Origin: Cellulomonas chitinilytica | Lineage (GTDB): Bacteria; Actinomycetota; Actinomycetes; Actinomycetales; Cellulomonadaceae | Assembly (NCBI RefSeq): GCF_016862675.1 | Contig: NZ_BONK01000002.1 | Location: forward strand, 186,001 to 250,000 | DNA: 64,000 bases | Direction: 5' to 3' | Shown here: in pieces, positions 38,164 to 56,159 of the stretch | Layout: every line of letters starts with the position of its first letter | Position numbering within the stretch: the stretch's first letter is position 1 | Made by a program: the position numbers and the translations under genes | The notes under the pieces: model-generated | Told to the model about the DNA's origin: nothing | The model's input: only the letters and a program-made list of their open reading frames with translations | The model's database searches: none

Positions 38164-38242
38164 GGTCGGCCGGCGACGACCACGGACCGGAACTCCCCTA
38201 TCGGCGGGTGACGTCGGCGGGTTACGTTCGGGTCGACACAGC

Positions 38243-38342
38243 CCCCGGGGAGCGCAGGAGCGCTGAGAGTGCGGCCGGACACGTCGTCCCACCCGCAGAC
38301 CCGTGGAACCTGACCTGGTTCGTACCAGCGTAGGGAGCAGGG
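38243..38342 (+). ncRNA. TPP riboswitch (THI element)
   Basis: The two conserved pieces of the thiamine pyrophosphate aptamer are present in order: CGCTGAGAGTGCGG (38261-38274) and ACCTGACCTGGTTCGTACCA followed by GCGTAGGGA (38308-38335), with AGACCCGTGGA before the second. A likely -10 box TACGTT is at 38223. Downstream (38343-38483), CACGTCGCCGG near 38346 can pair with CCGGCGACCTCGTG near 38433, a candidate expression platform before the ykoF ribosome binding site. Confidence 0.92.
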
Positions 38343-38483
38343 CGCACGTCGCCGGCCGCGCGCCGGTGGCCGTGCCCGTCGGGCGGGTGCGCCGTCGGCG
38401 TGCCCACCGGCGGGCGGCCGCGGCGCGACGTCCGGCGACCTCGTGCGGCTGCCCGGGGGTCCGACGCGAGACGAGGAGCACCC

Positions 38484-39110
38484 ATGAGCACCGTGACGAG
38501 CACCCCCGGACCGACCCTGACGCCGACCGATCTCGGGGTGGGTGCCCGCCTGACCCTCCTGCCCGCCGACGGCGACCTCGTCGATGTTCTGGGTCGTGCG
38601 CTCGCGACCGCCGACGGGATGCGCGTCGAGATCGGGTCGGACGAGGTGTCGACTCTCGTGCGGGGGGCCGAGGACGACGTCCTGCTGTTCGTGCACCACG
38701 TGATCGCCGCGGCGGCCCGGGTGGCGGGGCACGTGGTCGCGCACGTGCACCTGTCCCGTGGCTGCCCGGGCGAGGTCGCGTGCGGCCTCCCCGACGACGC
38801 CGTGCTCGCGTACGTGGACGCCCCGGAACTCCCCGCGACGGGCCTGCGCGCCGCGGCGCACTGGGCCCTCTACCCGCTCGACGACGGCCGCCCCGGGCAC
38901 CCCGGCGACCACATGCGGGCGATCGAGCAGGCCGTCGCGGTGGCCCGCACCCGGGCGACGGTGTCCTCCGAACGGTTCGTGACGCGTCTCGACGGCGACC
39001 TCGCGGAGGTCCTCGGCGCGGTGGCCGCCGGGTGGCTCGCGGCGGGCCGGCACGTCCGTCACGTCGTCGCCCACGCGACGGTGTCGGTGGGGTCGCCGCC
39101 GCGGCGGTGA
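38484..39110 (+). CDS. YkoF family thiamine/HMP-binding protein
   Basis: A 208-residue protein made of two YkoF repeats (about 15-100 and 110-205), with GARLTLLPADGDLVDVLGRA and the segment VAGHVVAHVHLSRGCPGE. In Bacillus, YkoF binds thiamine and belongs to the ykoFEDC hydroxymethylpyrimidine uptake system (family knowledge). Here a TPP riboswitch directly precedes it, which supports a thiamine role, but the ykoE, ykoD and ykoC transporter genes are not adjacent; the next genes form the sulfur operon. The ATG has GAGGAG 6 bases upstream. Confidence 0.88.
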   Translation: MSTVTSTPGPTLTPTDLGVGARLTLLPADGDLVDVLGRALATADGMRVEIGSDEVSTLVRGAEDDVLLFVHHVIAAAARVAGHVVAHVHLSRGCPGEVACGLPDDAVLAYVDAPELPATGLRAAAHWALYPLDDGRPGHPGDHMRAIEQAVAVARTRATVSSERFVTRLDGDLAEVLGAVAAGWLAAGRHVRHVVAHATVSVGSPPRR

Positions 39111-39173
39111 GCACGGCCGGGCCTCCCGACCTGGGACGGCGGTCTCACCTGGCGAGAATTCCGACCAATCTGG

Positions 39174-39201
39174 TTGGCATTTCACGGAGCGCCTCTACAG
39201 T
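39174..39201 (+). promoter_or_regulatory. Promoter of the sulfur operon leader
   Basis: TTGGCA (39174-39179), 16-base spacer, TACAGT (39196-39201), then 8 bases to the ATG of the leader peptide. The -35 box overlaps a small inverted repeat, ACCA-ATC-TGGT (39164-39174), a possible regulator site. Confidence 0.65.
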
Positions 39202-39209
39202 CGCCCGCC

Positions 39210-39287
39210 ATGACGACAGCACGCCTCGCGGCCATCACCGGTCGCCCCTGCCGGCAGCGGACCCGCACCTGCCCGTGTTGTCGCTGA
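39210..39287 (+). CDS. Leaderless cysteine-rich leader peptide (25 aa), probable cysteine attenuator
   Basis: A 25-codon frame, MTTARLAAITGRP followed by CRQRTRTCPCCR and a stop. Four of the last twelve residues are Cys, and three of them (TGC CCG TGT TGT) stand just before the stop. A good promoter places transcription at the ATG. In mycobacteria, leaderless poly-cysteine frames of this kind act as cysteine-responsive attenuators of sulfur operons (established). Here the peptide stands in front of an operon of sulfur-type genes. With little charged tRNA-Cys, ribosomes would stall at the Cys codons and let transcription continue. The following 180 bases are C-rich with a GGGCCC hairpin. Confidence 0.8.
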   Translation: MTTARLAAITGRPCRQRTRTCPCCR

Positions 39288-39344
39288 CCGCTCCCGGGCC
39301 CGCCGCGCACCCCGAGCGCGACTGAGCCCACACCCGCACGGACA

Positions 39345-39362
39345 CGGGCCCGCACGGGCCCG
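39345..39362 (+). promoter_or_regulatory. Hairpin in the sulfur operon leader
   Basis: CGGGCCC-GCAC-GGGCCCG, a 7-bp stem and 4-base loop, 58 bases after the leader peptide stop, inside C-rich sequence. It has no T tract; together with the C-rich run it fits a Rho-dependent or pausing attenuator. The rest of 39288-39468 shows no gene. Confidence 0.4.
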
Positions 39363-39468
39363 GCGCGGGCACCGCACCCGACAGACCCCATCCAGCAGGA
39401 GACCTCACGCGTCGTGCCACGCCGACGCGTGACGGTCCCTCGCGCCCCGAGAACGAGGACGAAACCCC

Positions 39469-41187
39469 ATGAGCGACCAGCTCTCCCAGATCGAGAACGA
39501 CCGCCGCCGCCGCAGGAGGTGGCCGTGGGTCGTCGCGGCGTCGGCCGTCGCCGTCGCCCTCGTCGGCACCGGTGCCGCCGCGTTCCTCGGCGGCGACGAG
39601 GACCCGACGCCCACCGCGACCGGGACCGCGCCCACCGAGCCCGTGCGGGGCGGCACGCTCCAGTTCGCCCTCATCGACTACCAGCACGTCGTCGACGTCC
39701 AGGCCGGGTCGAGCTACGCGGAGTCGATCATCGGCGGCAACGTCGTCGACAAGCTCACCTGGCAGGACCCCGACACCGGCGAGATCACGCCGTGGCTCGC
39801 GACGAGCTGGGACATCAACGACGACCTCACCGAGTTCACGTTCCACCTGCGCGACGACGTCACGTTCAGCGACGGCACCCCGTTCGACGCCGAGGTGGTG
39901 CGCGCCAACTTCGAGCAGTACGTGCACGGCGACGAGGCGCTGCAGATCAAGCCGAACGGCGCGACGCTGCTGCCCAACTACGTCGAGACGCGCGTCGTCG
40001 ACCCCCGCACGGTGACGGTCGTGTTCAGCAAGCCGTCCGCGAGCTTCCTGCAGGCGTCCTCGTTCACCGCGAACTTCCAGCCCGGGTTCCTGTCGCTGTC
40101 GACGCTCGCGAAGAGCGCCGAGGAGCGCACCGACCCGCTCAACGTCATCGGGACCGGCCCGTTCGTCTACGAGTCGTGGACGCCGCAGGTCAGCACCGTG
40201 CTCGTCAAGCGCAAGGGGTACGACTGGGCGCCGCCCGCGCTCAAGCACAAGGGTGAGGCGTACCTCGACAAGATCGTGTTCAGCTCCGTCCCCGAGGCGA
40301 GCGTCCGCACCGGGTCGCTGGAGTCCGGCGAGGTCGACGCGACCCTCGACGTGCAGACCACCGACGAGGCGCCGCTGCGCGACAAGGGCTTCGTCGTGGA
40401 GTCCGGCCGGGTCCGCGGCGCGGACATCCGGTTCGACTTCAACGTCGGCCTCTTCCCGACGGACGACCTCGCGGTCCGCCAGGCCATCCAGCTCGGCTGG
40501 AACCGGGACACCGTCGCGAAGAACGTCCTGACCGACTCCTACGAGATCTCCACCTCGGTCGTGGCACGGGCCGTGGACGGCTGGGTCGACTACAGCGGCA
40601 CGCTGCTGCACCAGGACACGAAGAAGGCAGAGAAGCTGCTCGACGACGCCGGGTGGGTGCCCGGGCCGGACGGCATCCGCGTGAAGGACGGCAAGCCGCT
40701 CGTCGTCAAGCTCTCCGGGATCAGCAACCTCGTCGTCAACAAGCCCGCGTACGAGTCGATCCAGCAGGACCTGCGCAAGCTCGGCATCGACCTGCAGCTC
40801 ACCGTCGTGCCGATCGCCGACTACACGGCCAACAACGCCAAGGCGAAGACGGACTTCAACATCACGGCCGCGAACCGCAGCCGCGCCGACATCTCGGTGC
40901 TCAACATCGCCTACAACCCGACCCTCGGGAACGCGAACTACGTGCCCGACGGCTTCGAGGGCCGCCAGGAGATCGTCGACACCCTGTCGGCGCTCGAGAC
41001 GACGCTCGACCCGGACGAGCGGCACGCCGCCGCGAAGAAGGCCCAGGACCTGATCCTCGAGAAGTACGCGCTGACCAACCCCGTCTACACGCCGGCGCAG
41101 GTCATCGCGCACAGCCCGAAGGTGCACGGGATCCTCTTCGACGCCCAGGCACGCAACCCGTTCGTCAACACGTGGAAGGAGGACTGA
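39469..41187 (+). CDS. ABC transporter substrate-binding protein, family 5 (peptide/nickel type)
   Basis: A 572-residue extracytoplasmic solute-binding protein. After a short basic start, a hydrophobic anchor (VVAASAVAVALVGTGAAAFL, about 21-40) is followed by a Thr/Pro linker and a family 5 domain: VRGGTLQFALIDYQHVVDVQ, WLATSWDINDDLTEFTFHLR, DVTFSDGTPFDAEVVRANFE, NVIGTGPFVYESW. There is no lipobox Cys, so it is either membrane-anchored or released. Family 5 proteins bind peptides, nickel complexes, glutathione and similar compounds; the neighbours suggest an organic sulfur ligand. First structural gene of the operon; its permeases and ATPase are encoded 9 kb downstream. Confidence 0.93.
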   Translation: MSDQLSQIENDRRRRRRWPWVVAASAVAVALVGTGAAAFLGGDEDPTPTATGTAPTEPVRGGTLQFALIDYQHVVDVQAGSSYAESIIGGNVVDKLTWQDPDTGEITPWLATSWDINDDLTEFTFHLRDDVTFSDGTPFDAEVVRANFEQYVHGDEALQIKPNGATLLPNYVETRVVDPRTVTVVFSKPSASFLQASSFTANFQPGFLSLSTLAKSAEERTDPLNVIGTGPFVYESWTPQVSTVLVKRKGYDWAPPALKHKGEAYLDKIVFSSVPEASVRTGSLESGEVDATLDVQTTDEAPLRDKGFVVESGRVRGADIRFDFNVGLFPTDDLAVRQAIQLGWNRDTVAKNVLTDSYEISTSVVARAVDGWVDYSGTLLHQDTKKAEKLLDDAGWVPGPDGIRVKDGKPLVVKLSGISNLVVNKPAYESIQQDLRKLGIDLQLTVVPIADYTANNAKAKTDFNITAANRSRADISVLNIAYNPTLGNANYVPDGFEGRQEIVDTLSALETTLDPDERHAAAKKAQDLILEKYALTNPVYTPAQVIAHSPKVHGILFDAQARNPFVNTWKED

Positions 41188-41222
41188 GGGGCCTCGCGCC
41201 CTTCAGTCCGCAGGGGCCGGCC

Positions 41223-42455
41223 GTGGGCGAGCAGCTGCACCTCAACGTCAACATCCTCAACTCCGGGGTCTTCGGCGGCTCCTGGCGGCACCCCGACAAC
41301 CCGCCGACGTCCGCGTACACGATCGAGCACTACACGCGCGTCGCCCGGGCCGCCGAGCGCGCCAAGCTCGACGCGGTGTTCCTCGCCGACGGGCCGGTGC
41401 TCGACGGCGGGCTCGAGCACCGCAGCGGCAACAGCTTCGAGCCGACCGTCAACCTCGCCCACCTGTCCGGCGTGACGAGCGACATCGGCCTGGTCGGCAC
41501 CTTGTCGTCGAGCTACAACGACGCCGACGAGCTCGCCCACCGGCTGCTCGGCGTCGACCACCTCAGCGGCGGCCGGGTCGGCTGGAACGTCGTGACGACC
41601 GCCGGCGCGGCGGCGGCCCGGAACTTCGGCCGCACCGCCGAGCCGGCGCACGCCGACCGCTACACGCGGGCGGCCGACGTGGTGTCGCGGGTCGTCGAGG
41701 CCTGGGACGGCGCCGCCGACCCGTCGCCGCAGGGGCGGCCCGTCGTCGTGCAGGCGGGCGGGTCGACCGACGGCGTCGAGCTCGCGGGCCGGCTCGGCGA
41801 GGTCATCTTCTCGGCGTCGCAGACCCTCGAGGAGGGGATCGCCTACCGCGCCCGGGTCAAGGCCGTCGCCGAGCGGCACGGGCGGCGGCCCGAGGACGTC
41901 GTCGTGCTGCCCGGCGTCTCGACGGTCGTCGCCGCGACCGAGGAGGAGGCACGTCGTCGCCGGGCGACCCTCGCCGAGCTCGTGCCGTGGCCGTACGCGA
42001 CCGCGCGGCTGTCCGCGCAGCTCGGGTTCGACGTGTCCGCGCACGACCCGGACGCCCTGGTGCCGCTCGACCTGCTACCCGAGCCCGACGACGCGGACGG
42101 CTCGCAGACGTTCTACCGGCTCGTCCTCGGCATCGTCCGCCGCGAGCGGCCGACGTTCCGGGCGTTGCTCGACCGTCTCGGCGGCGGCGCGGGGCACCGC
42201 ATCGTCGTCGGCACACCCGAGCAGGTCGCCGACGACCTCGAGACCTGGTTCCGGGCCGGCGGCGCCGACGGGTTCAACGTCATGCCCGACGTGCTGCCGT
42301 CCGGGTTCGACGACTTCGCCGAGGGCGTCGTGCCCGTGCTTCAGGCGCGCGGGCTGTTCCGCCGCGAGTACGACGGCTCGACGCTGCGCGCCCACCTCGG
42401 GCTGCCCGTGCGACCGCTGCCCCTGACCGACCGCCCGCTCGCCACGACGTGGTGA
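41223..42455 (+). CDS. LLM flavin monooxygenase, NtaA/SnaA/DmoA family (first copy)
   Basis: A 410-residue FMN-reduced-flavin monooxygenase. It starts with the hallmark LHLNVNILNSGVFGGSWRHP and has NLAHLSGVTSDIGLVGTLSS, HLSGGRVGWNVVTT, RPVVVQAGGSTDGVELAGR, RIVVGTPEQVADDLETWF and GADGFNVMPDVLPSGFDDF, the standard order of this family, which includes DszA, SnaA, NtaA and DMS monooxygenases. These enzymes break C-S or C-N bonds using FMNH2 from a partner reductase and oxygen (family knowledge). GTG start 35 bases after the SBP. A short LLM-like protein follows 25 bases later and may be its partner. No flavin reductase gene is in the operon. Confidence 0.92.
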   Translation: MGEQLHLNVNILNSGVFGGSWRHPDNPPTSAYTIEHYTRVARAAERAKLDAVFLADGPVLDGGLEHRSGNSFEPTVNLAHLSGVTSDIGLVGTLSSSYNDADELAHRLLGVDHLSGGRVGWNVVTTAGAAAARNFGRTAEPAHADRYTRAADVVSRVVEAWDGAADPSPQGRPVVVQAGGSTDGVELAGRLGEVIFSASQTLEEGIAYRARVKAVAERHGRRPEDVVVLPGVSTVVAATEEEARRRRATLAELVPWPYATARLSAQLGFDVSAHDPDALVPLDLLPEPDDADGSQTFYRLVLGIVRRERPTFRALLDRLGGGAGHRIVVGTPEQVADDLETWFRAGGADGFNVMPDVLPSGFDDFAEGVVPVLQARGLFRREYDGSTLRAHLGLPVRPLPLTDRPLATTW

Positions 42456-42480: not shown

Positions 42481-43362
42481 GTGAGCCCTGCTGCGATCCC
42501 GCTGCTGCTCGACGTCCCGCCCGTGCGCCCGACGGACGCCCGGTCCGTGCTCGACGTCCTCGCGCGTGCCGACGTCGCCGCGGTGCTCCTGCGCGACGGT
42601 GCCGGCTCCCCCGACCCCGCGGTGGGCGGCGTCGACCCGTCAGTCCTCGCCGGCCGGCTCACCGCGCTCGGCGGCCCCTCCGTGGTGGTCGAGGCGAGCA
42701 CCGGTCACCACGCCCCGTACAACCTGGCGCGGCGGGTCCAGTCGCTCGCGCGGATCACGGGCGGGCGCGCGGGGCTGCTCCTGCGGCCCGGTGGGATCGA
42801 CCCCCTCACGCGGGCCTCCGGTGCGGTCGACGGCCCCGGGTCGTTCGCCGAGTACGTCGCGGTCGTCCGGGCGCTGTGGTCGAGCTTCCCCGCTGAAGCC
42901 CTCGTAGGCGACGCCGCGAGCGGCACTTTCGCGGACGTCGGCCTGCTCGTGCCCCCGGCGTTCGAGGGCGCGACGTACCGGGTCGCCGGGGCGCTGAACG
43001 TGCCTGCCGCCGCCGACGAGCAGCCCGTGCTGCTCGTCGAGGGCGCGCGCGCCGTGCCGACCGGTGCGCACGGCGTGCTCGTCGGGCCGGACGACGCGTC
43101 CCCCGAGGGAGCTGCCCGGCTCGTCGTCGTCAGCGCCCGCGCCGCAGGGCACGGACCCGACGGGCTCCTGGACGCCGTCCTCGCGGCGGCCGAGCAGTCC
43201 GGGGACGCCGACGCGCTCGTCGTCCGCGTCCCGGCGTCCCCGGACTCGCTCGCCCCGGTCGTCGACCACTGGCTTGCCGCGCTCCACGGCGCCGGCCTCG
43301 TCACCGCGGATCGCGACGCTCCCCTGCACGTCACCCTGGCCCGGAAGGTCGTCCACGCATGA
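42481..43362 (+). CDS. Short LLM-like protein (first half-type copy), putative non-catalytic partner
   Basis: A 293-residue protein that aligns with the middle of NtaA-type LLM enzymes: HAPYNLARRVQSLARITGGR matches the YNLARR..LDHVSGGR region, and YVAVVRALWSSF..EALVGDAASGTFAD with YRVAGALNVP matches the region around the second flavin loop. The first strand motif (NVNxxxxG) is replaced by LLLDVPPVRP and the C-terminal VVGTPEQVAD segment is missing. This looks like a decayed or specialised paralogue, possibly a LuxB-like subunit of the preceding enzyme (inference). GTG start at 42481; the stop overlaps the metY ATG (ATGA). Confidence 0.78.
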   Translation: MSPAAIPLLLDVPPVRPTDARSVLDVLARADVAAVLLRDGAGSPDPAVGGVDPSVLAGRLTALGGPSVVVEASTGHHAPYNLARRVQSLARITGGRAGLLLRPGGIDPLTRASGAVDGPGSFAEYVAVVRALWSSFPAEALVGDAASGTFADVGLLVPPAFEGATYRVAGALNVPAAADEQPVLLVEGARAVPTGAHGVLVGPDDASPEGAARLVVVSARAAGHGPDGLLDAVLAAAEQSGDADALVVRVPASPDSLAPVVDHWLAALHGAGLVTADRDAPLHVTLARKVVHA

Positions 43363-44756
43363 CGCTGAACCTCGACGAGACGGCCACCGAGACGGTGGCC
43401 GGACCTCGCACCCTCGGCTTCACGACCGTGCAGGTGCACGGCGCCGACACGACCGACCTGGGCTACGGCGCACGCATCAACCCGGTGTACCTCAGCGCGG
43501 GCTTCGTGTTCGAGGACTTCGACCAGGCGCGGGACAGGTTCGCCGGCGACGACCCCGGCTACGTCTACTCGCGCATCAACAACCCGACGAACGCCGCCGT
43601 GGAGCGGCTCGTCGCCGAGCTCGAGGGCGGCGCCGCGGCGACGCTCGTCGGCAGCGGGCAGGCGGCCGTGACGGTCGCGGTGCTCGGGATCGTGCAGGCG
43701 GGCGACCACGTCCTGTCCGCCCCGAGCATCTACGAGGGCACCCGGGCGCTGTTCCGGCACAACCTCGCCCGGTTCGGGGTCGAGGTGGAGTTCGTCGACG
43801 AGCCGAACGACCCGGAGGACTGGCGGCGGCGGGTCCGCCCGAACACCCGGCTGTTCTACGGGGAGGTCATCCCGAACCCGAAGAACGACCTCATCGACCT
43901 CGCGGCGATCGCGCAGGTGGCGCACGAGCACGGGTCGCCGTTCGTGGTCGACGCGACCCTCGCGACGCCGTACCTGGTGCGGCCCGTCGACCACGGCGTC
44001 GACGTCGTCGTGCACTCCACGAGCAAGTTCCTCGCCGGGCACGGCAACGCGATCGGCGGAGTCGTGATCGACGCGGGTCGCTTCGACTGGGCCGCGCACA
44101 CCGACCGCTACCCGCACCTCGCCGCCCCGGCCAGCGGCCCGGGGACGCCGTCGTTCGTCGAGAAGTTCGGCGGGCTCGCGGCGTTCGCGTACTCGCGCGG
44201 CGCCGTCGCGTCGCGGCTCGGCCCGAGCCTGTCGCCGTTCAACGCGTTCCTGCTCCAGCAGGGCCTGGAGACGTTGTCGCTGCGCGTGCAGCGGCACTCC
44301 GACAACGCGCTGACCGTCGCGCGGTGGCTCGAGCAGCAGCCGGAGGTCTCGTCGGTCGACTACGCCGGTCTCGAGTCGCACCCGCAGCACGACCTCGCCG
44401 TGCGCTACCTGCCGCGCGGGGCGGGCTCGGTGTTCGCGTTCACGCTGGCGGACGGGCTCGACGCGGCCCGGACCGTCATCGACGCGGTCGAGATCTTCAC
44501 GCGGATGACGCACGTCGGCGACGTGCGCTCGCTGATCCTGCACCCGCCGACGACGACCCACTCGAAGCTCCCGGCGGCGGAGCGGGAGCGGGCGGGCATC
44601 CACCCCGGCCTGATCCGGCTCTCCGTCGGCATCGAGGACGTCGACGACCTGCTCGCCGACCTGGACCGGGCGTTCCGGGTGCTGCGCGGCGAACGACCGC
44701 CGTCGCTGCTCGCCCGGGGCGGCACCGCCGCGACGACGCCCGCGGAAGGGCTCTGA
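43359..44756 (+). CDS. metY: O-acetylhomoserine sulfhydrylase / cystathionine gamma-synthase family PLP enzyme (MetY-like)
   Basis: A 465-residue fold-type I PLP enzyme of the Cys/Met metabolism family. It has YSRINNPTNAAVERLVAELE, LVGSGQAAVTVAVLGI, VVDATLATPYLVRPVDHG and STSKFLAGHGNAIGGVVIDA, with PLP-binding Lys223. The long insert (YPHLAAPASGP..SFVEKFGGLAAFAYSR) is typical of O-acetylhomoserine sulfhydrylase (MetY) and not of the shorter MetB. It makes homocysteine from O-acetylhomoserine and sulfide, so it can capture sulfur freed by the monooxygenases. Translationally coupled to the gene before it; the next ATG is one base after its stop. MetY versus another sulfide-accepting specificity is not settled by sequence alone. 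Confidence 0.9.
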   Translation: MTLNLDETATETVAGPRTLGFTTVQVHGADTTDLGYGARINPVYLSAGFVFEDFDQARDRFAGDDPGYVYSRINNPTNAAVERLVAELEGGAAATLVGSGQAAVTVAVLGIVQAGDHVLSAPSIYEGTRALFRHNLARFGVEVEFVDEPNDPEDWRRRVRPNTRLFYGEVIPNPKNDLIDLAAIAQVAHEHGSPFVVDATLATPYLVRPVDHGVDVVVHSTSKFLAGHGNAIGGVVIDAGRFDWAAHTDRYPHLAAPASGPGTPSFVEKFGGLAAFAYSRGAVASRLGPSLSPFNAFLLQQGLETLSLRVQRHSDNALTVARWLEQQPEVSSVDYAGLESHPQHDLAVRYLPRGAGSVFAFTLADGLDAARTVIDAVEIFTRMTHVGDVRSLILHPPTTTHSKLPAAERERAGIHPGLIRLSVGIEDVDDLLADLDRAFRVLRGERPPSLLARGGTAATTPAEGL

Positions 44757-44757
44757 C

Positions 44758-45939
44758 ATGGCGGCGCCGACCCTGCCCCTGACACCCACCGCGCTGCGGG
44801 CCGCGCTCCGGCCGGTCCTCGACGTCCTCGCCGCCGGGTCCGCGGCCCGCGAGGCCGAGCGCCGGCACCCGTTCGCCGAGGTGCGCGAGCTCGCCGACCT
44901 CGGGGTGCTGCGCTTCCGCGTCCCCGTCGACGAGGGCGGCGCCGGGGCGAGCGTCCGCGAGCTCGTCGACCTCGTCATCGAGATCGCCCGCGCGGACTCC
45001 AACGTCGCGCAGGCGCTGCGGCCCGGGTTCCTCGTCGCCGACGGGCTCGCGCAGGACGTCACGCCGTCCGCCGCGCGGGACCGGACGCTGCGCCGCGTGC
45101 TCGACGGCGACCTGTTCGCGGGGACCCGCAACGAGGCGGACGGCCGCCCGGGCGCGGTCGCGACGACCATCGTGCGGGACGGCGACGGGTACGTGGTGAG
45201 CGGCCGCAAGTTCTACAGCACCGGCGGCCTGCACGCCCGGTGGTTCTCGGGCAGCGCGACCGACGAGGACGGCGTCGTCGTGACGTTCACGGTCCCGACC
45301 GACCGGCCCGGCGTGCAGGTGCTCGACGACTTCGACGCCGTCGGTCAGCGGCTCACCGCGTCGGGGACGACCGTGCTGGAGGGTGTGCGCGTCTCGGCGG
45401 ACGAGGTGGACGCCGTGCGCCGCTCCGTTGGACACCCGGTGGGCGCGCTGGCCCAGCTCTACCTGGTGGCCGTGCTCGCGGGCATCGCGCACGCGGTGCT
45501 GGACGACGCGGTCGCGTTCGCGCAGCACCGGGCGCGTCCGATCAAGCACAGCTCCGCGGACCGGTCCGTCGACGACCCGTACGTCCGGGAGGCCGTCGGC
45601 GAGATCGCCGCCCACGCGTTCGCGGCCCGCTCGGCCGCGCTGGTGGCAGCCGAGCACCTGGACGTCGCGTGGGCGGCGGCCGACGGCGCGCCACCGACGA
45701 CGGACGCGACGATCGCCGTCGCGACCGCCCAGGTCACCGCCGTGCGGGAGTCGCTCGCCGCCGCGCAGCGGCTGTTCGACGTGGGCGGCGGCTCCGCCAC
45801 GGGCCGCGCGCACAACCTCGACCGGCACTGGCGCAACGCGCGCACGGTCGCGAACCACAACCCCGTCGCCTGGAAGGCGGCCGTCGTCGGCGCGCACCTG
45901 CTGACCGGCGAGCTCCCGCCCTCCACCGGGCTGTTCTGA
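44758..45939 (+). CDS. Acyl-CoA dehydrogenase-like flavin monooxygenase (DszC/SfnB type)
   Basis: A 393-residue protein with the acyl-CoA dehydrogenase fold: N-terminal helices, a beta domain (YVVSGRKFYSTGGLHARWF, about 142-160) and C-terminal helices. The end LFDVGGGSATGRAHNLDRHW, then RNARTVANHNPVAWK, is typical of the DszC/SfnB branch, whose members oxygenate sulfur compounds with FMNH2 rather than dehydrogenate acyl-CoA; the catalytic Glu of dehydrogenases is not evident. Its place between metY and two reductases supports a sulfur role (sulfoxidation or C-S cleavage). Starts one base after metY stops. Confidence 0.9.
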   Translation: MAAPTLPLTPTALRAALRPVLDVLAAGSAAREAERRHPFAEVRELADLGVLRFRVPVDEGGAGASVRELVDLVIEIARADSNVAQALRPGFLVADGLAQDVTPSAARDRTLRRVLDGDLFAGTRNEADGRPGAVATTIVRDGDGYVVSGRKFYSTGGLHARWFSGSATDEDGVVVTFTVPTDRPGVQVLDDFDAVGQRLTASGTTVLEGVRVSADEVDAVRRSVGHPVGALAQLYLVAVLAGIAHAVLDDAVAFAQHRARPIKHSSADRSVDDPYVREAVGEIAAHAFAARSAALVAAEHLDVAWAAADGAPPTTDATIAVATAQVTAVRESLAAAQRLFDVGGGSATGRAHNLDRHWRNARTVANHNPVAWKAAVVGAHLLTGELPPSTGLF

Positions 45940-45983: not shown

Positions 45984-47050
<1,067 letters not shown>

Positions 47051-47054
<4 letters not shown>

Positions 47055-48070
47055 CCACCTGGACCGCTTCCGACGACCGCTTCGACCGTCTCCCGCTGCG
47101 CCGGGCCGGCCGCTCCGGCCTCCTGCTGCCCGCGGTGTCGTTCGGCCTGTGGCAGAAGTTCGGCGACCGCCACCCGTACGAGACGCAGCGCGAGATCCTC
47201 CTCGCCGCGTTCGACCTGGGCATCACGCACTTCGACATCGCCAACCGGTACGGGCCGCCGCACCGCGCCGCCGAGAAGAACTTCGGCCGCCTGCTCCGCG
47301 AGGACCTCGGCGGTCACCGTGAGGAGATCGTCGTCTCGACGAAGGCGGGCAACCCGATCGGCCGCAGCCCGTACCTCGTCGGCGGCTCCCGCAAGTCGCT
47401 GCTCGGCTCGCTCGACCACAGCCTGCGCGACCTCGGCCTCGACTACGTCGACATCTTCTACTCGCACAGCCCGGACCTGAACACCCCGCTGGAGGAGACC
47501 GTCTCGGCGCTCGTCGACGCCGTCCGGCAGGGCAAGGCGCTGTACGTCGGCATCTCCAACTACTCCGCCGAGCGTGCGCACGAGGCCGCCGAGCTGCTGC
47601 GCGCGGCCGGCGTCCCGCTGCTCGTGCACCAGCCGCGCTACTCGATCTTCGACCGGCGCATCGAGCGGGAGGACATCCTCGGCCAGTCGGCCCGTGACGG
47701 GGTCGGCCTCGTCACGTACTCGCCGCTCGCCCAGGGCCTGCTGACCGACAAGTACCTCACGGGGCTGGTCCCCGCCGGGGCGCGGGCCGAGCAGAGCGAC
47801 TTCCTCTCCCCCGACGACATCACCGCCGACTACCGCACCCGGGCGGCGGCGCTCGACGCCCTCGCCCGTGAGCGCGGCCAGTCGCTCGCCCAGCTCGCGC
47901 TGCAGTGGGTGCTCCGGCGTCCCGAGGTGACGAGCGCGCTGGTCGGCGCGAGCTCGGTCGACCAGCTCCGGCACAACCTCGCCGCACTCGACGCTGCGCC
48001 CCTCACCGACGCCGAGCTCGCCTCCGTCGACGAGCACGGCGTCCACGGCACCGGTCTGAGGCTGAAGTGA
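47051..48070 (+). CDS. Aldo/keto reductase (YghZ/Kv-beta type, second copy)
   Basis: A 339-residue reductase of the branch with L-glyceraldehyde-3-phosphate reductase (YghZ): LLLPAVSFGLWQKFGDRHPY, THFDIANRYGPPHRAAEKNF (Asp, Tyr), IVVSTKAGNPIG (Lys), DYVDIFYSHSPDLNTPLEET (His), then QSLAQLALQWVLRRPEVTSA. It differs clearly from the preceding reductase, so it is not a recent duplicate. ATGA overlap at the start and GTGA overlap at the end show tight coupling in the operon. Substrate unknown; a carbonyl product of the monooxygenases is plausible. Confidence 0.92.
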
Positions 48071-49086
48071 GCGCTGGGACGACCGGGATCCGCAGGCTCG
48101 GGTTCCTGCTCCACCTCGACCGCGACCAGGCACCCGCCGAGGCGTTCGCCGACGCGGTGACGCTGTTCCAGCGGGCCGAGCAGCTCGGGTACGACTCCGG
48201 CTGGGTCATCCAGCGGCACTTCCGGCAGGGCAACGAGCACGTGTCGTCGCCGCTGGTCCTGCTGGCCGCGATCGCGCAGCACACGGGCCGCATCCGGCTC
48301 GGCACCGGCGTGCTCGTGCTGCCGCTCGAGGACCCGCTGCGGGTGGCGGAGGACGCCGCGACCCTCGACGCGCTCAGCGGCGGCCGCCTGGAGCTCGGGA
48401 TCGGGTCCGGCCCGTTCCCGGGCGCCTGGGAGGCGTTCGGCCGGGACCTCGCCGAGCGGCACGCGGCATGGGACGCGGCCGTCGACCGGCTGCACGAGGT
48501 GCTCGAGGGGACGCCGCTGAACAGCGCGGGCGAGCGGCTGCACCCTGCCGGGGCGGGCGTGCGCCGGCGGCTGTGGCAGGCGACGTCGAGCGCGCCCGAG
48601 GTCGCCGAGGCGCAGGCGGTGCGGGCCGCCGCCGCCGGGGACGGCCTGCAGCTGTCCCGGGCGACCGCGTGGAACCCGAACCTCGACGAGTCCGCGCAGG
48701 CGTCCCTCATCAAGGCGTACCGCTCGGCGCTCCCGCAGGGCGTCGAGCCGCGGGTGCTCGTCTCGCGCGCCGTCTACCCGGACGTGTCCCGCGAGGCGGC
48801 GCTCGAGAAGCTGGCGCCCGGCGCGCGGCGGTGGCAGGCGTGGCAGGGCCGCGGACGTCCCGAGATCGCCGACGCCTCCCCCGCCGAGTACCTCGACCGG
48901 GACCGGACCCGGTTCGGCACCCCCGACGAGATCGCCGACGGGCTCGCCACCGACGCGGGTCTCGCGGAGGCGACCGACCTCCTGGTGAGCTTCCCGCCCG
49001 CCGCGCCCGACCTGGCCGAGCACCTGCGGCTCCTCACCGCCACCGCGACCGAGGTCGCCCCGCGCCTGGGCTGGAAGGCGTCATGA
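48067..49086 (+). CDS. Luciferase-like flavin monooxygenase (KPN_01858-like)
   Basis: A 339-residue LLM protein of a different branch from the NtaA-type enzymes of the operon. It has RRLGFLLHLDRDQAPAEAFA, YDSGWVIQRHFRQGNEHVSS, IRLGTGVLVLPLEDPLRVAE and LDALSGGRLELGIGSGPF. I associate it with the 'FMN-dependent luciferase-like monooxygenase, KPN_01858' group, which in proteobacteria sits with peptide-type ABC importers and CMD/AhpD proteins, as here. That assignment is from memory of the family and should be checked. GTGA overlap with the reductase before it, ATGA overlap with the next gene. Confidence 0.87.
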   Translation: MSAGTTGIRRLGFLLHLDRDQAPAEAFADAVTLFQRAEQLGYDSGWVIQRHFRQGNEHVSSPLVLLAAIAQHTGRIRLGTGVLVLPLEDPLRVAEDAATLDALSGGRLELGIGSGPFPGAWEAFGRDLAERHAAWDAAVDRLHEVLEGTPLNSAGERLHPAGAGVRRRLWQATSSAPEVAEAQAVRAAAAGDGLQLSRATAWNPNLDESAQASLIKAYRSALPQGVEPRVLVSRAVYPDVSREAALEKLAPGARRWQAWQGRGRPEIADASPAEYLDRDRTRFGTPDEIADGLATDAGLAEATDLLVSFPPAAPDLAEHLRLLTATATEVAPRLGWKAS

Positions 49087-50402
49087 GCTACCACCTCAAC
49101 CTCTCGCTGCAGAACCCCGGGCACGTCCGGACGGCCTGGCGGCTGCCCGCCAACGACCCGTTCGCGCAGACCGACGTCGCCTACCTGCGACGGCTGGTGC
49201 AGGAGGCGGAGCGCGCGAAGATCCACGCCGTGTTCGTGGGCGACGGGCCGGCGCTCACGGGCGCCATCGAGCGCGCGCCGGAGGCCGGCATCGAGCCGGT
49301 CGTGCTGTTCGCCAGCCTGCTCGCCGGGACGAGCCACATCGGCGCGGTCGCCACGTCGAGCACGACGTACAACGACCCGTACAACCTCGCGCGGCGGTAC
49401 TCGGCGCTCGACCACGTCACCGGCGGCCGGGCCGCCCTCAACGCGGTCACGACCTACTCGCCCGCGGCCGCCGCGAACTTCGGGCTCGCCGAGCCGCCCG
49501 CGAAGGAGGACCGCTACCGGCGTGCCGAGGAGTTCCTCGAGGTCATCACCGCGCTGTGGGACGCGTGGGAGCCCGGCGCGATCGTCGCCGACAAGGCGTC
49601 CGGGCGATACGCGGACCCGTCGAAGGTCCACGCGATCGACCACGCCGGCGAGTTCTTCTCCGTGCGCGGGCCGCTCAGCATCCCCGAGTCGCCGCAGGGC
49701 CGGCCGCTGCTCGTGCAGGCCGGGGCGTCGGAGGGCGGCGTGCGGCTCGGGGCACGGTTCGCGGACGTCGTGTTCGCCGTGGCGCAGACGCCCGAGCGGG
49801 CCGTCGCGTTCCGCGAGGACCTGCGGCTGCGGGCGCGGGCCTTCGGCCGGGACGACGGGCCGATCGTGTCGCTCGGCGTCGTCGTCCTCCTGGGGTCCAC
49901 GCAGGAGGAGGCACGGCGCCGGGCCGACGACGTGCTCGGCACGATCGACATCGACACCGCCACCGCGCAGCTGCTCGCGTCGCTCGGCCTGCCGCCCGAC
50001 AGCCACCGGCCCGACGACCCGCTCACGCTCGCCGACCTGCCGGACGTCGCGGAGCGCCGCAGCTCCGAAGGCTTCCAGGCCAGCACCCGGGCGCTGCTCG
50101 AACGGGGTCCCCGGACGCCTCGCGACCTCGTGCACCGCTCCGCCGGCGGTGCCGGGCACCGGCTCGTCGTCGGGACGCCCGAGCAGGTCGCCGACGACCT
50201 CGACGCCTGGTACCGGGCGGGCGCCGCCGACGGGTTCACGATCATGCCCGCGGACACCGCCACCGACCTGGAGGCGTTCACCGGCCACGTCGTCCCGCTC
50301 CTGCAGGACCGCGGGTCGTTCCAGCGGGAGTACTCGGGCACGACGCTGCGCGAGAGCTACGGCCTCGCACCCGTGCGGCGACGGGAGGTCGCGCGCACAT
50401 GA
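49083..50402 (+). CDS. LLM flavin monooxygenase, NtaA/SnaA/DmoA family (second copy)
   Basis: A 439-residue enzyme of the same family as the one at 41223 but clearly distinct. Seen: YHLNLSLQNPGHVRTAWRLP, ASLLAGTSHIGAVATSSTTY, DPYNLARRYSALDHVTGGRA, ASGRYADPSKVHAIDHAGEF with the full-length insert, RPLLVQAGASEGGVRLGARF, RLVVGTPEQVADDLDAWYRA and GAADGFTIMPADTATDLEAF. It is complete, unlike the short copies. It probably cleaves a C-S bond with FMNH2. ATGA overlaps at both ends tie it to the LLM before it and the permease after it. Confidence 0.92.
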   Translation: MSYHLNLSLQNPGHVRTAWRLPANDPFAQTDVAYLRRLVQEAERAKIHAVFVGDGPALTGAIERAPEAGIEPVVLFASLLAGTSHIGAVATSSTTYNDPYNLARRYSALDHVTGGRAALNAVTTYSPAAAANFGLAEPPAKEDRYRRAEEFLEVITALWDAWEPGAIVADKASGRYADPSKVHAIDHAGEFFSVRGPLSIPESPQGRPLLVQAGASEGGVRLGARFADVVFAVAQTPERAVAFREDLRLRARAFGRDDGPIVSLGVVVLLGSTQEEARRRADDVLGTIDIDTATAQLLASLGLPPDSHRPDDPLTLADLPDVAERRSSEGFQASTRALLERGPRTPRDLVHRSAGGAGHRLVVGTPEQVADDLDAWYRAGAADGFTIMPADTATDLEAFTGHVVPLLQDRGSFQREYSGTTLRESYGLAPVRRREVART

Positions 50403-51430
50403 CCCGGTACCTCCTGCTCAAGGTCGGCCGCGCGCTGTTCGTGGTCTGGGCCGCGTTCACCCTCACGTTCGTGCTGCTCTACGTGCTGCCCGCGAACCCC
50501 GAGGACCTGATGTTCGACCCGTCCGAGATCAACACGGTCTCGGACGAGACGAAGGCGAGCGTCGCGGCGATGTACGGGTTCGACAAGCCCGTGCCGCTGC
50601 AGTACCTCGACCGGCTCGGCCACGCCCTGACCGGCGACTTCGGGAACTCGGTGCACAACGGCCAGCGCGTCTCCGACGCGATCGGCGAGGTGCTGCCCGC
50701 GACGATCGTGCTGTCGGTGGCGGCCCTCCTGCTCGCCGTCGTCATCGCGTTCGGGATCGCGGTCGTCGCCACCACCACGCGCGTCCCCTTCGTGCGCGCA
50801 CTCGTCGAGGCGTTGCCCCCCGCGTCGGTGTCCGTCCCCGTGTTCCTGCTGGGGATCGTCGTCATCCACGTGTTCTCGTTCCGGCTGGGCTGGTTCCCGT
50901 CCTTCGGCGACGCGGGCTGGAGGGGGCTCGTGCTGCCGCTCGTGACGCTCGCGATCCCCGTGTCAGGACCCATCGCGCAGCTGCTCGTGCGCAGCTTCGA
51001 GACCGAGCTCGCCAGCCCGTACGTGACGACGTCGACCGCGAAGGGCGCGACCCGCGGCTGGATCGTGGTGCGCGACGTCGCCCGCAACGCCAGCCTGCCC
51101 GCCCTGACGATCGCCGGGGTCACGTTCGGCCACCTGATCGCGGGCGCCGTGATCATCGAGACGATCTTCTCCCGCACGGGTCTCGGGCGGCTCACGCAGG
51201 TCGCCATCAACAGCAAGGACGTGCCGCTCGTCCAGGGCGTCGTCGTGCTCGTCGCGCTGACCTTCGCCGTCATCAACCTCGTCGTCGACGTCGTCTACCC
51301 GCTGCTCGACCCGCGGCTGCGCGCCGAGTTGCGAGCGAAGCCCGCCGACGTGACCGCACCGGCCGTCACGGCAGCGCCCGCGACCGCCGACGTCGAGCCC
51401 GCCGCTCCCGCCGACCTCGTGAGGACCTGA
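50399..51430 (+). CDS. ABC transporter permease, DppB type
   Basis: A 343-residue inner-membrane permease with six hydrophobic helices. The N-terminus MTRYLLLKVGRALFVVWAAF, the LTGDFGNSVHNGQRV loop and the EAA-type loop (TTSTAKGATRGWIVVRDVAR) followed by IIETIFSRTGLGRL are typical of DppB/OppB. It pairs with the DppC-type gene 2 bases downstream and with the family 5 binding protein at 39469. The tail is Ala/Pro-rich and disordered. Confidence 0.93.
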   Translation: MTRYLLLKVGRALFVVWAAFTLTFVLLYVLPANPEDLMFDPSEINTVSDETKASVAAMYGFDKPVPLQYLDRLGHALTGDFGNSVHNGQRVSDAIGEVLPATIVLSVAALLLAVVIAFGIAVVATTTRVPFVRALVEALPPASVSVPVFLLGIVVIHVFSFRLGWFPSFGDAGWRGLVLPLVTLAIPVSGPIAQLLVRSFETELASPYVTTSTAKGATRGWIVVRDVARNASLPALTIAGVTFGHLIAGAVIIETIFSRTGLGRLTQVAINSKDVPLVQGVVVLVALTFAVINLVVDVVYPLLDPRLRAELRAKPADVTAPAVTAAPATADVEPAAPADLVRT

Positions 51431-51432
51431 CC

Positions 51433-52314
51433 ATGAGCACCCTCACCCTCACGGCCCCCGGCGCGGCCGCCACCGCGACGCTCCGGCGCCTCACGGACAC
51501 CGTCCGCGACATCGCCCGCCAGCCGACCCTGCTGCTGTCGTGGGTCGTCGTCCTCGTCGCCGTCGCGTGGGCCGTCGTGCCCGACGTCTTCACCGACGCC
51601 AGCCCGTACGAGGGCGACAGCGCGCTGTCGTTCGCGCCGCCCGGCTGGGGCCACCCGTTCGGCACGGACCGGCTCGGTCGCGACCTGTACTCGCGGGCCG
51701 TGCACGGTGCCTCGGCGACCCTCACGGCGACGCTCATCGCCGTCCTCGTCGCCCTCACCGTAGGCGGGCTCATCGGGCTCGTCGCGGGTTACTTCGGCCG
51801 GCACGTCGACACCGCCGTGATGCGCACGGTCGACGTCGGGCTCGCGATCCCGAGCCTGCTCCTCGCCATGGTCATCGTCGCGATGCTCGGCTACTCGACG
51901 CGCAACATCGCCCTCGCCGTCGGCATCGCGTCCATCGCGTCGTTCGCGCGGGTCATGCGCGCCGAGGTCGTCCGGGTCGTCAGCAGCGACTACGTCGAGG
52001 CGGCCGACGGCGTCGGGGCCCGCCGCGCCGCCGTCGTCCTCAAGCACGTGCTGCCGAACTCGATGAGCTCGGTGCTGGCGCTCGCGGCGCTCGAGATCGG
52101 CACGTCCGTGCTCGCCGTCGCGAGCCTCGGGTTCCTCGGGTACGGCGCACCGCCGCCCGAGCCGGAGTGGGGCCTGCTCGTCGCCGAGGGCCGCGACTTC
52201 GTCGGGCAGTACCCGTGGATCTCCGTCCTGCCGGGCGTGCTCATCGCGGCGCTCGTGCTGTCGAGCCACCGGATCGCCACGTCGTTCCGACGCAGCCACC
52301 AGGAGACCTCATGA
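51433..52314 (+). CDS. ABC transporter permease, DppC type
   Basis: A 293-residue permease, second of the heterodimer. It has a long first helix (LLLSWVVVLVAVAWAVVP), GHPFGTDRLGRDLYSRAVHG, the hallmark of DppC, IPSLLLAMVIVAMLG, and an EAA loop in SDYVEAADGVGARRAAVVLK. It starts 2 bases after the DppB-type stop and overlaps the ATPase start by 4 bases (ATGA). Confidence 0.93.
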   Translation: MSTLTLTAPGAAATATLRRLTDTVRDIARQPTLLLSWVVVLVAVAWAVVPDVFTDASPYEGDSALSFAPPGWGHPFGTDRLGRDLYSRAVHGASATLTATLIAVLVALTVGGLIGLVAGYFGRHVDTAVMRTVDVGLAIPSLLLAMVIVAMLGYSTRNIALAVGIASIASFARVMRAEVVRVVSSDYVEAADGVGARRAAVVLKHVLPNSMSSVLALAALEIGTSVLAVASLGFLGYGAPPPEPEWGLLVAEGRDFVGQYPWISVLPGVLIAALVLSSHRIATSFRRSHQETS

Positions 52315-54019
52315 CGCTCACCACCGCGGCGCCGGTCGTCGACCCGACCCGCGCCGACGAGCCCGCCGCGCCGCTGCTGCGCGTCGCGGACCTCGCCGTC
52401 ACGTACCGCACGGACCGCGGCCGCCGGGAGGCTGTCGCGGCGGCGGACGTGCACGTGGAGCCGGGTGAGTTCGTCGCCGTCGTCGGCGAGTCCGGCTCCG
52501 GGAAGTCGACGCTCGTCCAGGCCTCCCTGGGCCTGCTGCCCGCGAACGGCCGCATCACGCGCGGCCGGGTCGAGTACTCGGGCGTCGACGTCACGCGGTG
52601 GAGCGACCGGCGGCTGTCCCGCGTCCGGGGGTCGTACGTGGGGTTCGTCCCGCAGGACCCCGGCACCGCGCTGAACCCGACCAAGCGCGTCGGCCAGCAG
52701 GTGCTCGAGGCGGTCGTGCTGAACGAGCCCGCGAGCCGGCCCCGCACCGCGGCCGAACGGGTCGCCCGGGCCGTCGAGAGCCTGGAGGTCGCCGGGCTCG
52801 CCGACGCCCGCCGCGTCTACGAGCAGTACCCGCACGAGCTCTCGGGCGGGATGCGCCAGCGTGTGCTCATCGCGATCGCGCTGGCCGGGAACCCGAAGCT
52901 GGTCGTCGCCGACGAACCCACGAGCGCCCTCGACGTCACCGTGCAGCGCGTCATCCTCGACCACCTCGGCGCCCTGCGCCGCGACCTCGGCATCGGCGTC
53001 CTGCTCGTCACGCACGACCTCGGCGTCGCGCTCGACCGCGCGGACCGGGTGGTCGTCATGCACGAGGGCCGGGTCGTCGAGGAGGGCGACGCCGGGGACG
53101 TCCTGCGCGCCCCGCGGGACCCGTACACGCGGCGCCTGCTCGCTGCGGCCCCGACGCGCAGCTCGGTCCGCCTCGCGCCGACGGACACCTCGACGCACAC
53201 CCCGGCGCCCGCGCCGGAGCCGACCATCGCGGGGTCGACCGGTCCCGTCCTGTCCGCCGAGGGCGTCAGCCGGACGTTCCACGTCGGCCACGGCCCCACC
53301 CGCCGCACCATCCACGCGGTCGCCGGCGTCGACCTGCACGTGCACCCGGGACGCACGCACGCGATCGTCGGGGAGTCGGGCGCCGGGAAGTCCACGCTCG
53401 CCCGCCTGCTCGTCGGGCTCGGCACGCCCGACGGCGGCCGCGTCCGCGTCGGCGACGCCACGCTGCACGACCTGTCCCGTCGCGAGCGGCGCGAGGTCAC
53501 CGCGACCTGCAGTTCGTCTACCAGAACCCGTACACGTCGCTCGACCCGCGGTTCAGCGTCGAACGTCTCGTGGCCGAGCCGCTGCGCTCGTTCCGGGTGG
53601 GCTCGCGGGCCGCGGTCCGGGACCGGGTCGTGGAGCTGCTGGACCAGGTGGCGCTCGACCCGAGCTACCTGCGGCAACGGCCGGGCCAGCTCTCGGGCGG
53701 GCAGCGGCAGCGGGTCGCGATCGCGCGGGCGCTCGCCCTCGAGCCGCGCACGATCGTGCTCGACGAGCCCGTGTCCGCGCTCGACGTGTCGGTGCAGGCG
53801 CAGATCCTCCAGCTCCTCGTCGACCTGCAAGCCCGGCTCGGCCTCAGCTACGTGCTCATCACGCACGACCTCGGCGTCGTGCGGCTCGTCGGCGACGACG
53901 TGACCGTCATGAAGGACGGCGTCGTCGTGGAGACCGGGACCGTCGACGACGTGTTCACCGCACCACGCCACGACTACACCCGGCGGCTCCTCGACGCCGT
54001 CCCCGGAGGTTCCCGATGA
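52311..54019 (+). pseudogene. Dual ABC transporter ATP-binding protein (DppD-DppF fusion), frameshifted
   Basis: A fused double ATPase. The first half is complete: GESGSGKST (Walker A), LSGGMRQRV (signature), LVVADEPTSALD (Walker B) and VTHD. The second half has GESGAGKST, then the frame breaks near 53499-53505 (GTCACCGCGACC): the Q-loop and the rest ([45 protein letters not shown]) continue one base earlier, in another frame, to a stop at 54019. Restoring one base, or re-reading one base, gives the expected V-T-R-D-L-Q-F. No slippery heptamer is visible, so a sequencing error or a recent mutation is more likely than programmed shifting. Without repair the protein would stop near 53903 with a nonfunctional second site. 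Confidence 0.85.
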
Positions 54020-54891
54020 CCGGCTCACGCGCTGGTACCCGCCCGACCCTGCTCGCCCCTCGGGGCGCGGCCGCGCTCGCGCTCCTCGACGACGACGTGC
54101 TGGACCGCGTCCGGGCCCTCCTCGTCGCCGGACGGTTGCACGGGCTCCTGCTCGGCGCGGAGCGGCTCGACGGCGGCGTCGCCGCGTCCGAGCCGACCGG
54201 ACTCGCCGCGACCCTCGCCGGACGGCTGCCCGAGGCGGGGCTCGTCACCGTCTCCGCGGACCCGCACGACCACCCGTACAACACGGCACGCCGCACCCTG
54301 TCGCTCGACCACGTCACGGGTGCGCGGTCCGGGGTGCTGTTCGGCGGGCACGGCGCCACGGTCGGCGAGACGGCCGAACGGGTCCTCGTCGTCCGCGAGC
54401 TGTGGAACAGCTACCCCGTGCAGTCGATCGTGGGCGACCGCGCCACCGGCGTCTTCGCGGTCGTCGACGGCGTCCGGGACGTCGCGCACCGCGGCCCCCG
54501 GTACGACGTGGCCGGGGCGCTCAACACGCCGTCGAGCCGGCAGGGCGAGCCCGTCTCGTTCTGGTCGGTCGACGGCCCGGCGGGCGCGCCGGACGACGGG
54601 CTCGTCGACGTGCTCGTCGTCCCGGCGACGACGCACCTGAGCGCCACCGCCGGGGCGCGGGTGTACCGGCGCGGGCCGCTAGACCCGTCGTGGCCGGACG
54701 GCACCCCGCCGTGGGCCGCCGACGGGCTCGTGCTGGAGACCGGCGACCTGGCACCCGCCACGCTCGACGCCCTCGACCGGCTCCCCCGGCAGGCCGCGAC
54801 CGTGACGGGCACGCTCCGTCACCGCCTGGGCCTGCCCGACCGCTCGATCAACCTCACCGACCGCCCCCGGACCTTCGGAGCCACCGCATGA
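54016..54891 (+). CDS. Short LLM-like protein (second half-type copy), putative non-catalytic partner
   Basis: A 291-residue relative of the short protein at 42481. HDHPYNTARRTLSLDHVTGA corresponds to the flavin-site region of NtaA-type LLM enzymes, and LVVRELWNSY..IVGDRATGVFAV with YDVAGALNTPS matches the next conserved block. The first NVNxxxxG strand and the C-terminal VIGTPEQVADD segment are missing. It ends with ATGA overlapping the start of a full-length LLM gene, so a short/long pair occurs here just as at 41223-43362. I infer a LuxA/LuxB-like subunit relationship, unproven. ATG overlaps the ATPase stop. Confidence 0.78.
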   Translation: MTGSRAGTRPTLLAPRGAAALALLDDDVLDRVRALLVAGRLHGLLLGAERLDGGVAASEPTGLAATLAGRLPEAGLVTVSADPHDHPYNTARRTLSLDHVTGARSGVLFGGHGATVGETAERVLVVRELWNSYPVQSIVGDRATGVFAVVDGVRDVAHRGPRYDVAGALNTPSSRQGEPVSFWSVDGPAGAPDDGLVDVLVVPATTHLSATAGARVYRRGPLDPSWPDGTPPWAADGLVLETGDLAPATLDALDRLPRQAATVTGTLRHRLGLPDRSINLTDRPRTFGATA

Positions 54892-56144: not shown

Positions 56145-56159
56145 TCCCCCGGAGGACCC

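Follow-up and report, generated by a model that had tools for sequence, protein, structure and literature searches.

A putative leaderless cysteine leader peptide in front of a sulfur-poor, candidate organosulfur operon in Cellulomonas chitinilytica

Does a 25-codon frame that ends in a cluster of cysteines sense cysteine on behalf of the large operon behind it? The question is raised by a locus on contig NZ_BONK01000002.1 of Cellulomonas chitinilytica, within the 64,000-nucleotide stretch of DNA that was analyzed (the window, to which all coordinates refer). In work attributed to Canestrari et al. of 2020, leaderless polycysteine ORFs are said to be cysteine-responsive attenuators in Mycobacterium smegmatis. 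As far as the excerpts of the following papers go, the M. smegmatis attenuator is described in PMC9031893 and cited in PMC9094748 and PMC13236596, Cys-rich upstream frames are noted in PMC4633059, and leader peptides of cys operons were predicted in 2005 for Mycobacterium, Propionibacterium acnes, and Bifidobacterium longum (PMC1262725).

The short frame lies behind a promoter-like site at 39174–39201 on the forward strand. This comprises a −35 element TTGGCA (39174–39179, five of six positions) and, after a spacer of 16 nt, a −10 element TACAGT (39196–39201), and together they match the consensus at 9 of 12 positions. The site is the single match in the region 38900–39700, where shuffled sequences give a mean of 0.0. 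The frame, MTTARLAAITGRPCRQRTRTCPCCR followed by a stop codon, occupies 39210–39287 on the same strand; its ATG at 39210 is separated by 8 nt from the −10, and its C-terminal end is CPCCR-stop, as the earlier note had read it. Neither a Shine-Dalgarno sequence nor a purine-rich site precedes the ATG. The Cys codons are numbers 14, 21, 23, and 24 (TGC, TGC, TGT, and TGT), such that four fall within the last 12 codons and three within the last five. From the spacing of the promoter, transcription would be expected to start at 39210. A search of 39131–39215 for perfect inverted repeats of 5–9 bases with a loop of at most 8, as in a palindromic operator, gave none.

Across both strands of the window, four promoter-like sites match at 9 of 12 positions or better, and two of them have a start codon 8 nt past the −10. 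One is that of MTTARLAAITGRPCRQRTRTCPCCR; behind the other, on the opposite strand, lies a frame of 441 aa with an N terminus that reads like a helix-turn-helix regulator, so this genome uses the same spacing for a far longer frame as well. The chance of finding a Cys-ended frame at this place was estimated with a criterion chosen post hoc, with the frame already known (a frame of 12–45 codons starting 5–9 nt past the promoter, with at least three Cys in its final six codons), and came to 6.7e-6, 1.3e-5, and 0/150,000 per promoter in three random models, that is, about 1e-5 or less. These odds, and a start placed 8 nt past the −10 of a 9/12 promoter, argue against the reading that MTTARLAAITGRPCRQRTRTCPCCR is simply a chance frame in C-rich sequence, which we regard as very unlikely.

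That reading draws its support from the lack of conservation of the frame. The best non-self match to MTTARLAAITGRPCRQRTRTCPCCR in 81 genomes of the genus has an E value of 0.04, and the 29 loci fetched from the genus matches contain one Cys-ended short frame, which lacks a −10 in place. Five other matches (E 0.003–0.02) among 396 sampled genomes of the order were rejected: four have no startable short frame, and at L157, the remaining one, there is overlap with a sense frame of 391 aa. Chance is also favored by the occurrence of CPCCR-stop DNA in 12 of the 81 genus genomes. When all 12 loci were read, 11 had no start with a −10 in place; only the frame of the window starts behind a suitably placed −10-like hexamer, and the others were therefore taken as chance. 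Further Cys-bearing short frames occur without a −10 and point the same way.

The operon begins 181 nt downstream of the short frame, and all of its genes lie on the forward strand; those without a profile match are named from a reading of the letters. The first gene (39469–41187) encodes a substrate-binding protein (SBP) of the SBP_bac_5 family with no Cys and no internal Met, for which the nearest profile, TIGR04028, scores 357 bits against a cut-off of 468. It is followed by a gene placed by position and letters as LLM monooxygenase-like (41188–42455, start approximate), and then by genes assigned by profile search: an LLM-like protein far below the TIGR03860 cut-off (42481–43362); MetY, an O-acetylhomoserine/O-acetylserine sulfhydrylase above the TIGR01326 cut-off (43359–44756); and a protein with an SfnB-like/DszC-like acyl-CoA dehydrogenase fold, below cut-off (44758–45939). 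Two genes at 45993–48070 read like aldo-keto reductases. Profile search further places two LLM monooxygenases at 48067–50402, one TIGR04027-like and below cut-off and the other above the TIGR03860 cut-off; two ABC permeases and an ATPase region of the dipeptide/nickel type at 50399–54019, where the search covered the first permease; and two LLM-type genes, the second above the TIGR03860 cut-off, with an ATP-grasp-like gene that has a weak RimK match, at 54016–57086. As in the earlier note's description, an ABC importer is joined to an LLM/MetY operon; the LLM, SfnB, and MetY families suggest that its role is organosulfur scavenging.

The proteins encoded by this operon contain very little sulfur. 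Fourteen of them, with 5,268 residues together, have 2 Cys and 13 internal Met, a count that omits the ATPase and includes some approximate starts; seven operon frames picked automatically total 3,004 residues, of which 3 are Cys and 3 are internal Met. By comparison, Cys makes up 0.73% and Met 1.23% of the residues in 27 gene-like frames elsewhere in the window, which were picked by codon-position GC and surely include some false ones. The SBPs of the 22 orthologous loci described below have no Cys in 22 of 22 cases and no internal Met in 19; the match begins past the start codon in five of the 22, and in the four of these with the start found the missing N terminus adds no Cys or Met. In G162, a genome from the same order of bacteria, the aligned parts of 11 operon proteins comprise 3,840 residues with 0 Cys and 9 Met. 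The codon TGT is never used in 13 operon genes (4,859 codons) and occurs twice among the 25 codons of MTTARLAAITGRPCRQRTRTCPCCR, four of which encode Cys. In Rhodococcus IGTS8 under sulfate starvation, the proteins made under sulfur limitation similarly contain few Cys and Met (PMC8557817, in the excerpt available), whereas here both are almost missing from nearly the entire operon. We argue from these sulfur-poor proteins that the operon is produced under sulfur shortage, the very condition in which a Cys leader would allow its expression. Sensor and cargo would then agree, with the demand for cysteine shifted into four codons of a throw-away peptide.

Close comparison of the frame is limited by the distribution of the SBP. 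In a set of 39 near genomes, of which 25 (its own included) belong to the genus, the best non-self match to the SBP is 42% identical, and its own genome alone passes 1e-120 among 219 sampled genomes of the family, so the sampled genus and family genomes offer no orthologue for such a comparison. Plasmid-borne close orthologues were sought in 212 records and set aside, the best listed identity being 37%. Orthologues of 57–68% identity occur in three other genomes of the 396 sampled in the order and at 19 of the 21 loci of a second search. This gives 22 orthologous loci (L080–L101), drawn from two source sets that may overlap, after two loci at 33–34% identity were dropped.

The window and these 22 loci were scanned for leaderless frames in a manner blind to Cys, requiring a TANNNT hexamer (A at position 2 and T at position 6), a start 5–9 nt behind it, at most 60 codons, and a distance of at most 420 nt from the SBP. 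Such a frame is present at 7 of the 23 loci, and all seven have a Cys-bearing end, which again weighs against chance. The six found in orthologues, in Glycomyces (three), Micromonospora, Microbispora, and a Sphaerisporangium MAG, encode a leaderless YSRREID(L/F)xxxAxALC peptide starting 7 nt after the −10, with the consensus MRxLLLYSRREIDLAxFAGALCRR. At E <= 10, three of the six peptides match NF042934 and one matches NF042933, with a best score of 17.7 bits against a cut-off of 27. The claim of a leaderless-type Cys-cluster frame before a sulfur operon therefore finds support, with 6 of 22 orthologous loci carrying a leaderless Cys leader of known type at that very place. Beyond the range of the scan, Streptomyces samsunensis has a further Cys-ended frame 447 nt upstream of the SBP and 10 nt after TACAGA. 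The DNA near the stop codon of MTTARLAAITGRPCRQRTRTCPCCR resembles its counterpart at L095, a likeness that may be due to chance.

At the other 16 of the 22 orthologous loci, four of them with the gene order of the window, the Cys-blind scan gave no leaderless frame. By eye, two of these (L083 and L087) show a promoter-like stretch and a short leader with no frame, from which it follows that the operon can run without a leader peptide. Such loci favor an alternative in which the promoter is real, the operon is controlled by a repressor or activator, and the short frame is untranslated or translated without consequence. This alternative is, however, opposed both by the chance of about 1e-5 for a Cys-ended frame at that place and by the fact that Cys leaders recur at this position among orthologues, and we consider it unlikely. 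As a separate observation, CCTATAGG-like stretches were seen by eye near the promoter at four orthologous loci free of a leaderless frame (L083, L087, L090, and L091); these are perhaps a repressor site.

The four relatives that keep the gene order of the window, as far as their records reach, are G162, in which it matches from the SBP to the ATPase, Mycetocola reblochoni, a Microbacteriaceae isolate, and Arthrobacter HMWF013. None of the four has a leaderless frame before the SBP in the Cys-blind scan. Short Cys-bearing frames that lack a −10 in place occur in two: G162 (L080) has VECPRCCRAGRGGSSGSLRV, and Arthrobacter (L101) has MTNRCLVLPTVAHRYCCFRNAASC..., the latter with 37 codons and 4 Cys. 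The Arthrobacter frame was taken as probably due to chance for lack of the −10, and that of G162 for the same reason and for its position beside a divergent gene start. On the opposite strand, the G162 frame precedes the start of a divergent gene of 340 aa, which reads like cysteine synthase; from this position, the letters of the frame may be explained by a leader of that gene. By eye, the operon of G162 (L151) is divergent from genes reading like cysteine synthase/cystathionine beta-synthase and cystathionine lyase.

Conservation of the frame in relatives, on which the earlier note had made its reading depend, was thus not found, given the best genus E value of 0.04, the rejected order matches, and the four relatives of the same gene order without the frame. 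By the condition that the note set, this weighs against its reading, although the sampled genomes of genus and family offer no SBP orthologue for a close comparison. The comparison suggests that the window leader is young, is a replacement, or has changed beyond recognition, and that the logic of a Cys leader recurs before this SBP with the peptide MTTARLAAITGRPCRQRTRTCPCCR particular to this lineage. Finding unrelated Cys leaders repeatedly ahead of one importer points to their easy gain and loss, and leaders of this kind would escape sequence-family models such as NF042934.

The RNA between the short frame and the operon is C rich and structured (39288–39468, 181 nt), with a composition of C 0.47, G 0.30, A 0.18, and T 0.05. 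Its strongest C-over-G stretch starts 83 nt into the leader. The predicted fold of 39209–39480 beats 200 of 200 shuffles (z = −3.2) and includes a GGGCCC hairpin at 39345–39362 (7-bp stem, 39345–39351/39356–39362) that has no T-run; a hairpin CACGCGTCG...CGACGCGTG with a 9-bp outer stem at 39406–39431; and a local CCTCG/CGAGG hairpin at 39438–39458, which pairs most of the operon Shine-Dalgarno GAGGA (39455–39459). Both the C-rich leader and the GGGCCC hairpin described previously are therefore present. The region 38900–39700 contains no intrinsic terminator, that is, no hairpin with a T-run as in a trp-type attenuator. No Rfam family was matched in the leader; across the whole window, the gathering score is reached only by a TPP riboswitch (38236–38355, 59 bits). 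The riboswitch precedes a gene at 38484–39110, directly upstream of the promoter, that reads like a YkoF-type thiamine-binding protein.

On the evidence of the DNA, we consider it probable that MTTARLAAITGRPCRQRTRTCPCCR is a leaderless, cysteine-responsive attenuator of the downstream operon. Transcription would start at, or within 1–2 bases of, 39210, in which case, judging by the promoter spacing, a 70S ribosome would initiate directly at the 5′ AUG, with no Shine-Dalgarno. When Cys-tRNA is plentiful, this ribosome would pass codons 21–24 (C-P-C-C) and stop at 39287; once it had gone, the 181-nt C-rich leader would be exposed, the Shine-Dalgarno of the operon would be mostly paired, and expression would be low. 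With scarce Cys-tRNA, the ribosome would halt at the Cys codons and the operon would be expressed, importing organosulfur compounds and stripping them to feed MetY, as its gene families suggest. Such a response of the operon to cysteine is what the frame and its position lead us to expect. For the read-out, we slightly prefer Rho-dependent termination, acting on the naked, C-rich RNA, over a change in access to the ribosome-binding site.

Rho favors RNA rich in C over G. The leader would suit it, since 1.1% of the 181-nt stretches from both strands of the whole window equal or exceed its excess of C over G. The C-rich stretch begins at 83 nt, out of reach of a ribosome halted on the Cys codons, which weighs against a direct link from the halt to Rho. 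For mycobacterial cys leaders, Rho was proposed in PMC1262725 and, in the part of that paper available, called weak by its authors.

In a translational variant of attenuation, the ribosome halted at Cys codons would instead refold the leader and free the Shine-Dalgarno, leaving transcription unaffected. We hold this variant to be rather improbable, in an estimate that overlaps with that for attenuation as a whole. The placement of the Shine-Dalgarno in the hairpin at 39438–39458 and the stability of the stretch (z = −3.2) are consistent with it, and the M. smegmatis leader is reported, in the excerpt of PMC9031893, to control translation. However, the local hairpin folds much alike with or without a ribosome on the Cys codons: in constrained folding, the operon Shine-Dalgarno is unpaired at 0.24–0.33 with a ribosome on codons 14–26 and at 0.30 without one. 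The same test on the six orthologous leaders gives changes of −0.08 to +0.09 without a consistent trend. Folding models, which are weak evidence for a GC-rich RNA of about 300 nt, thus lend no support to the idea that a stalled ribosome exposes the ribosome-binding site.

Cysteine-responsive attenuation at this locus would resemble several known systems. The mycobacterial ORFs of the Ms5788A type (NCBIfam NF042933) are leaderless, as MTTARLAAITGRPCRQRTRTCPCCR is predicted to be, and likewise end in a Cys cluster and precede a sulfur operon, but the operon here is a different one, MTTARLAAITGRPCRQRTRTCPCCR has no match to NF042933 at E <= 10, and unmasking of the ribosome-binding site is not seen in our folding. 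Leaders similar to those of NF042934 (cis_reg_atten, "putative leader peptide"), short and ending in Cys, occupy this position before 6 of the 22 orthologous SBPs, whereas MTTARLAAITGRPCRQRTRTCPCCR has four Cys, lacks an SRRxxDL-like motif, and is without a match at E <= 10; a search of MTTARLAAITGRPCRQRTRTCPCCR against both families gave 0 matches at that threshold. The cys-operon leaders of PMC1262725 also have runs of Cys codons near the stop and no terminator, a likeness drawn from the descriptions available in that paper rather than from sequences, and their operons differ. In Streptomyces lividans, metL (PMC8079986, in excerpt) is leaderless, has Cys and Met near its end, precedes a sulfur amino-acid importer, and lacks a typical terminator; its sequence and importer (metNIQ) differ, and it has been read as methionine dependent. 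Since MTTARLAAITGRPCRQRTRTCPCCR lies outside both leader families yet has the same architecture, we view it as a probable further example of a known leader mechanism.

The suggestion that this locus would extend the mechanism beyond mycobacteria goes too far in view of the 2005 predictions for Propionibacterium and Bifidobacterium (PMC1262725, in the part available) and of a match to NF042934 above cut-off in the same genome. Among the matches listed in a literature search, with subscription journals largely outside its scope, there was no prior report of this leader or operon. The locus offers a candidate cysteine sensor outside mycobacteria that is open to test, on an operon nearly free of sulfur amino acids.

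The NF042934 match above cut-off in this genome lies at C13:17985 (L124/L152, G000:C13:17985); as a further Cys leader in the genome, it is in keeping with the attenuator reading of MTTARLAAITGRPCRQRTRTCPCCR. The leader there, VSTWNLTERRAVDLRRVASALCRPDPGR, is of the SRRxxDL type, is led by a Shine-Dalgarno (by eye), and precedes a symporter of the DctA/GltP fold. A profile built from the six orthologous leaders matches 20 of the 81 genus genomes at E <= 0.1 (L104–L123), and all 20 loci have a short frame that ends, or nearly ends, in VASALCR before a symporter-like gene.

In addition, Cys mini-ORFs occur in the middle of operons of the genus, before SBP paralogues of about 40% identity. These mini-ORFs, MTACCPGRRRPRR and variants (MTACCPG...), are led by a Shine-Dalgarno, and their ATG overlaps the stop codon of an ABC ATPase. 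They were seen at L032 (G000:C2, before 356780), L034, L013, L009, L012, L008, and L140–L148; the corresponding mid-operon place in the genome studied here reads MSTSCRCGLRRTPTNA. A pattern search gave nine hits in 81 genomes of the genus and, among 218 genomes of the family, those nine again, with Cys-Cys in seven of the nine and a single Cys in two. Beyond the positions that the pattern itself fixes, the nine loci have a pairwise identity of 0.74, then 0.67, and then 0.2–0.5, a profile biased over −8 to +20 by the selecting pattern and drawn from loci of which several are close relatives. We treat the mid-operon mini-ORFs as a lead rather than a finding. It is conceivable, though doubtful, that the genus guards several sulfur-starvation operons with Cys mini-ORFs of three builds: the leaderless terminal-cluster type, the Shine-Dalgarno-led SRRxxDL type, and the mid-operon MTACCPG... 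type. If so, the last would control no more than the binding protein that follows and would act as a cysteine checkpoint within an operon, linked to translation of the preceding gene; no description of such a checkpoint was among the literature matches listed. Of 16 paralogues (L002–L017), three have the mini-ORF (L009, L012, and L013), L008 has a shorter VTSCRRG, and L003 comes without upstream sequence. Eleven of these 16 paralogous SBPs have no internal Met, and all have 0–3 Cys in the matched part.
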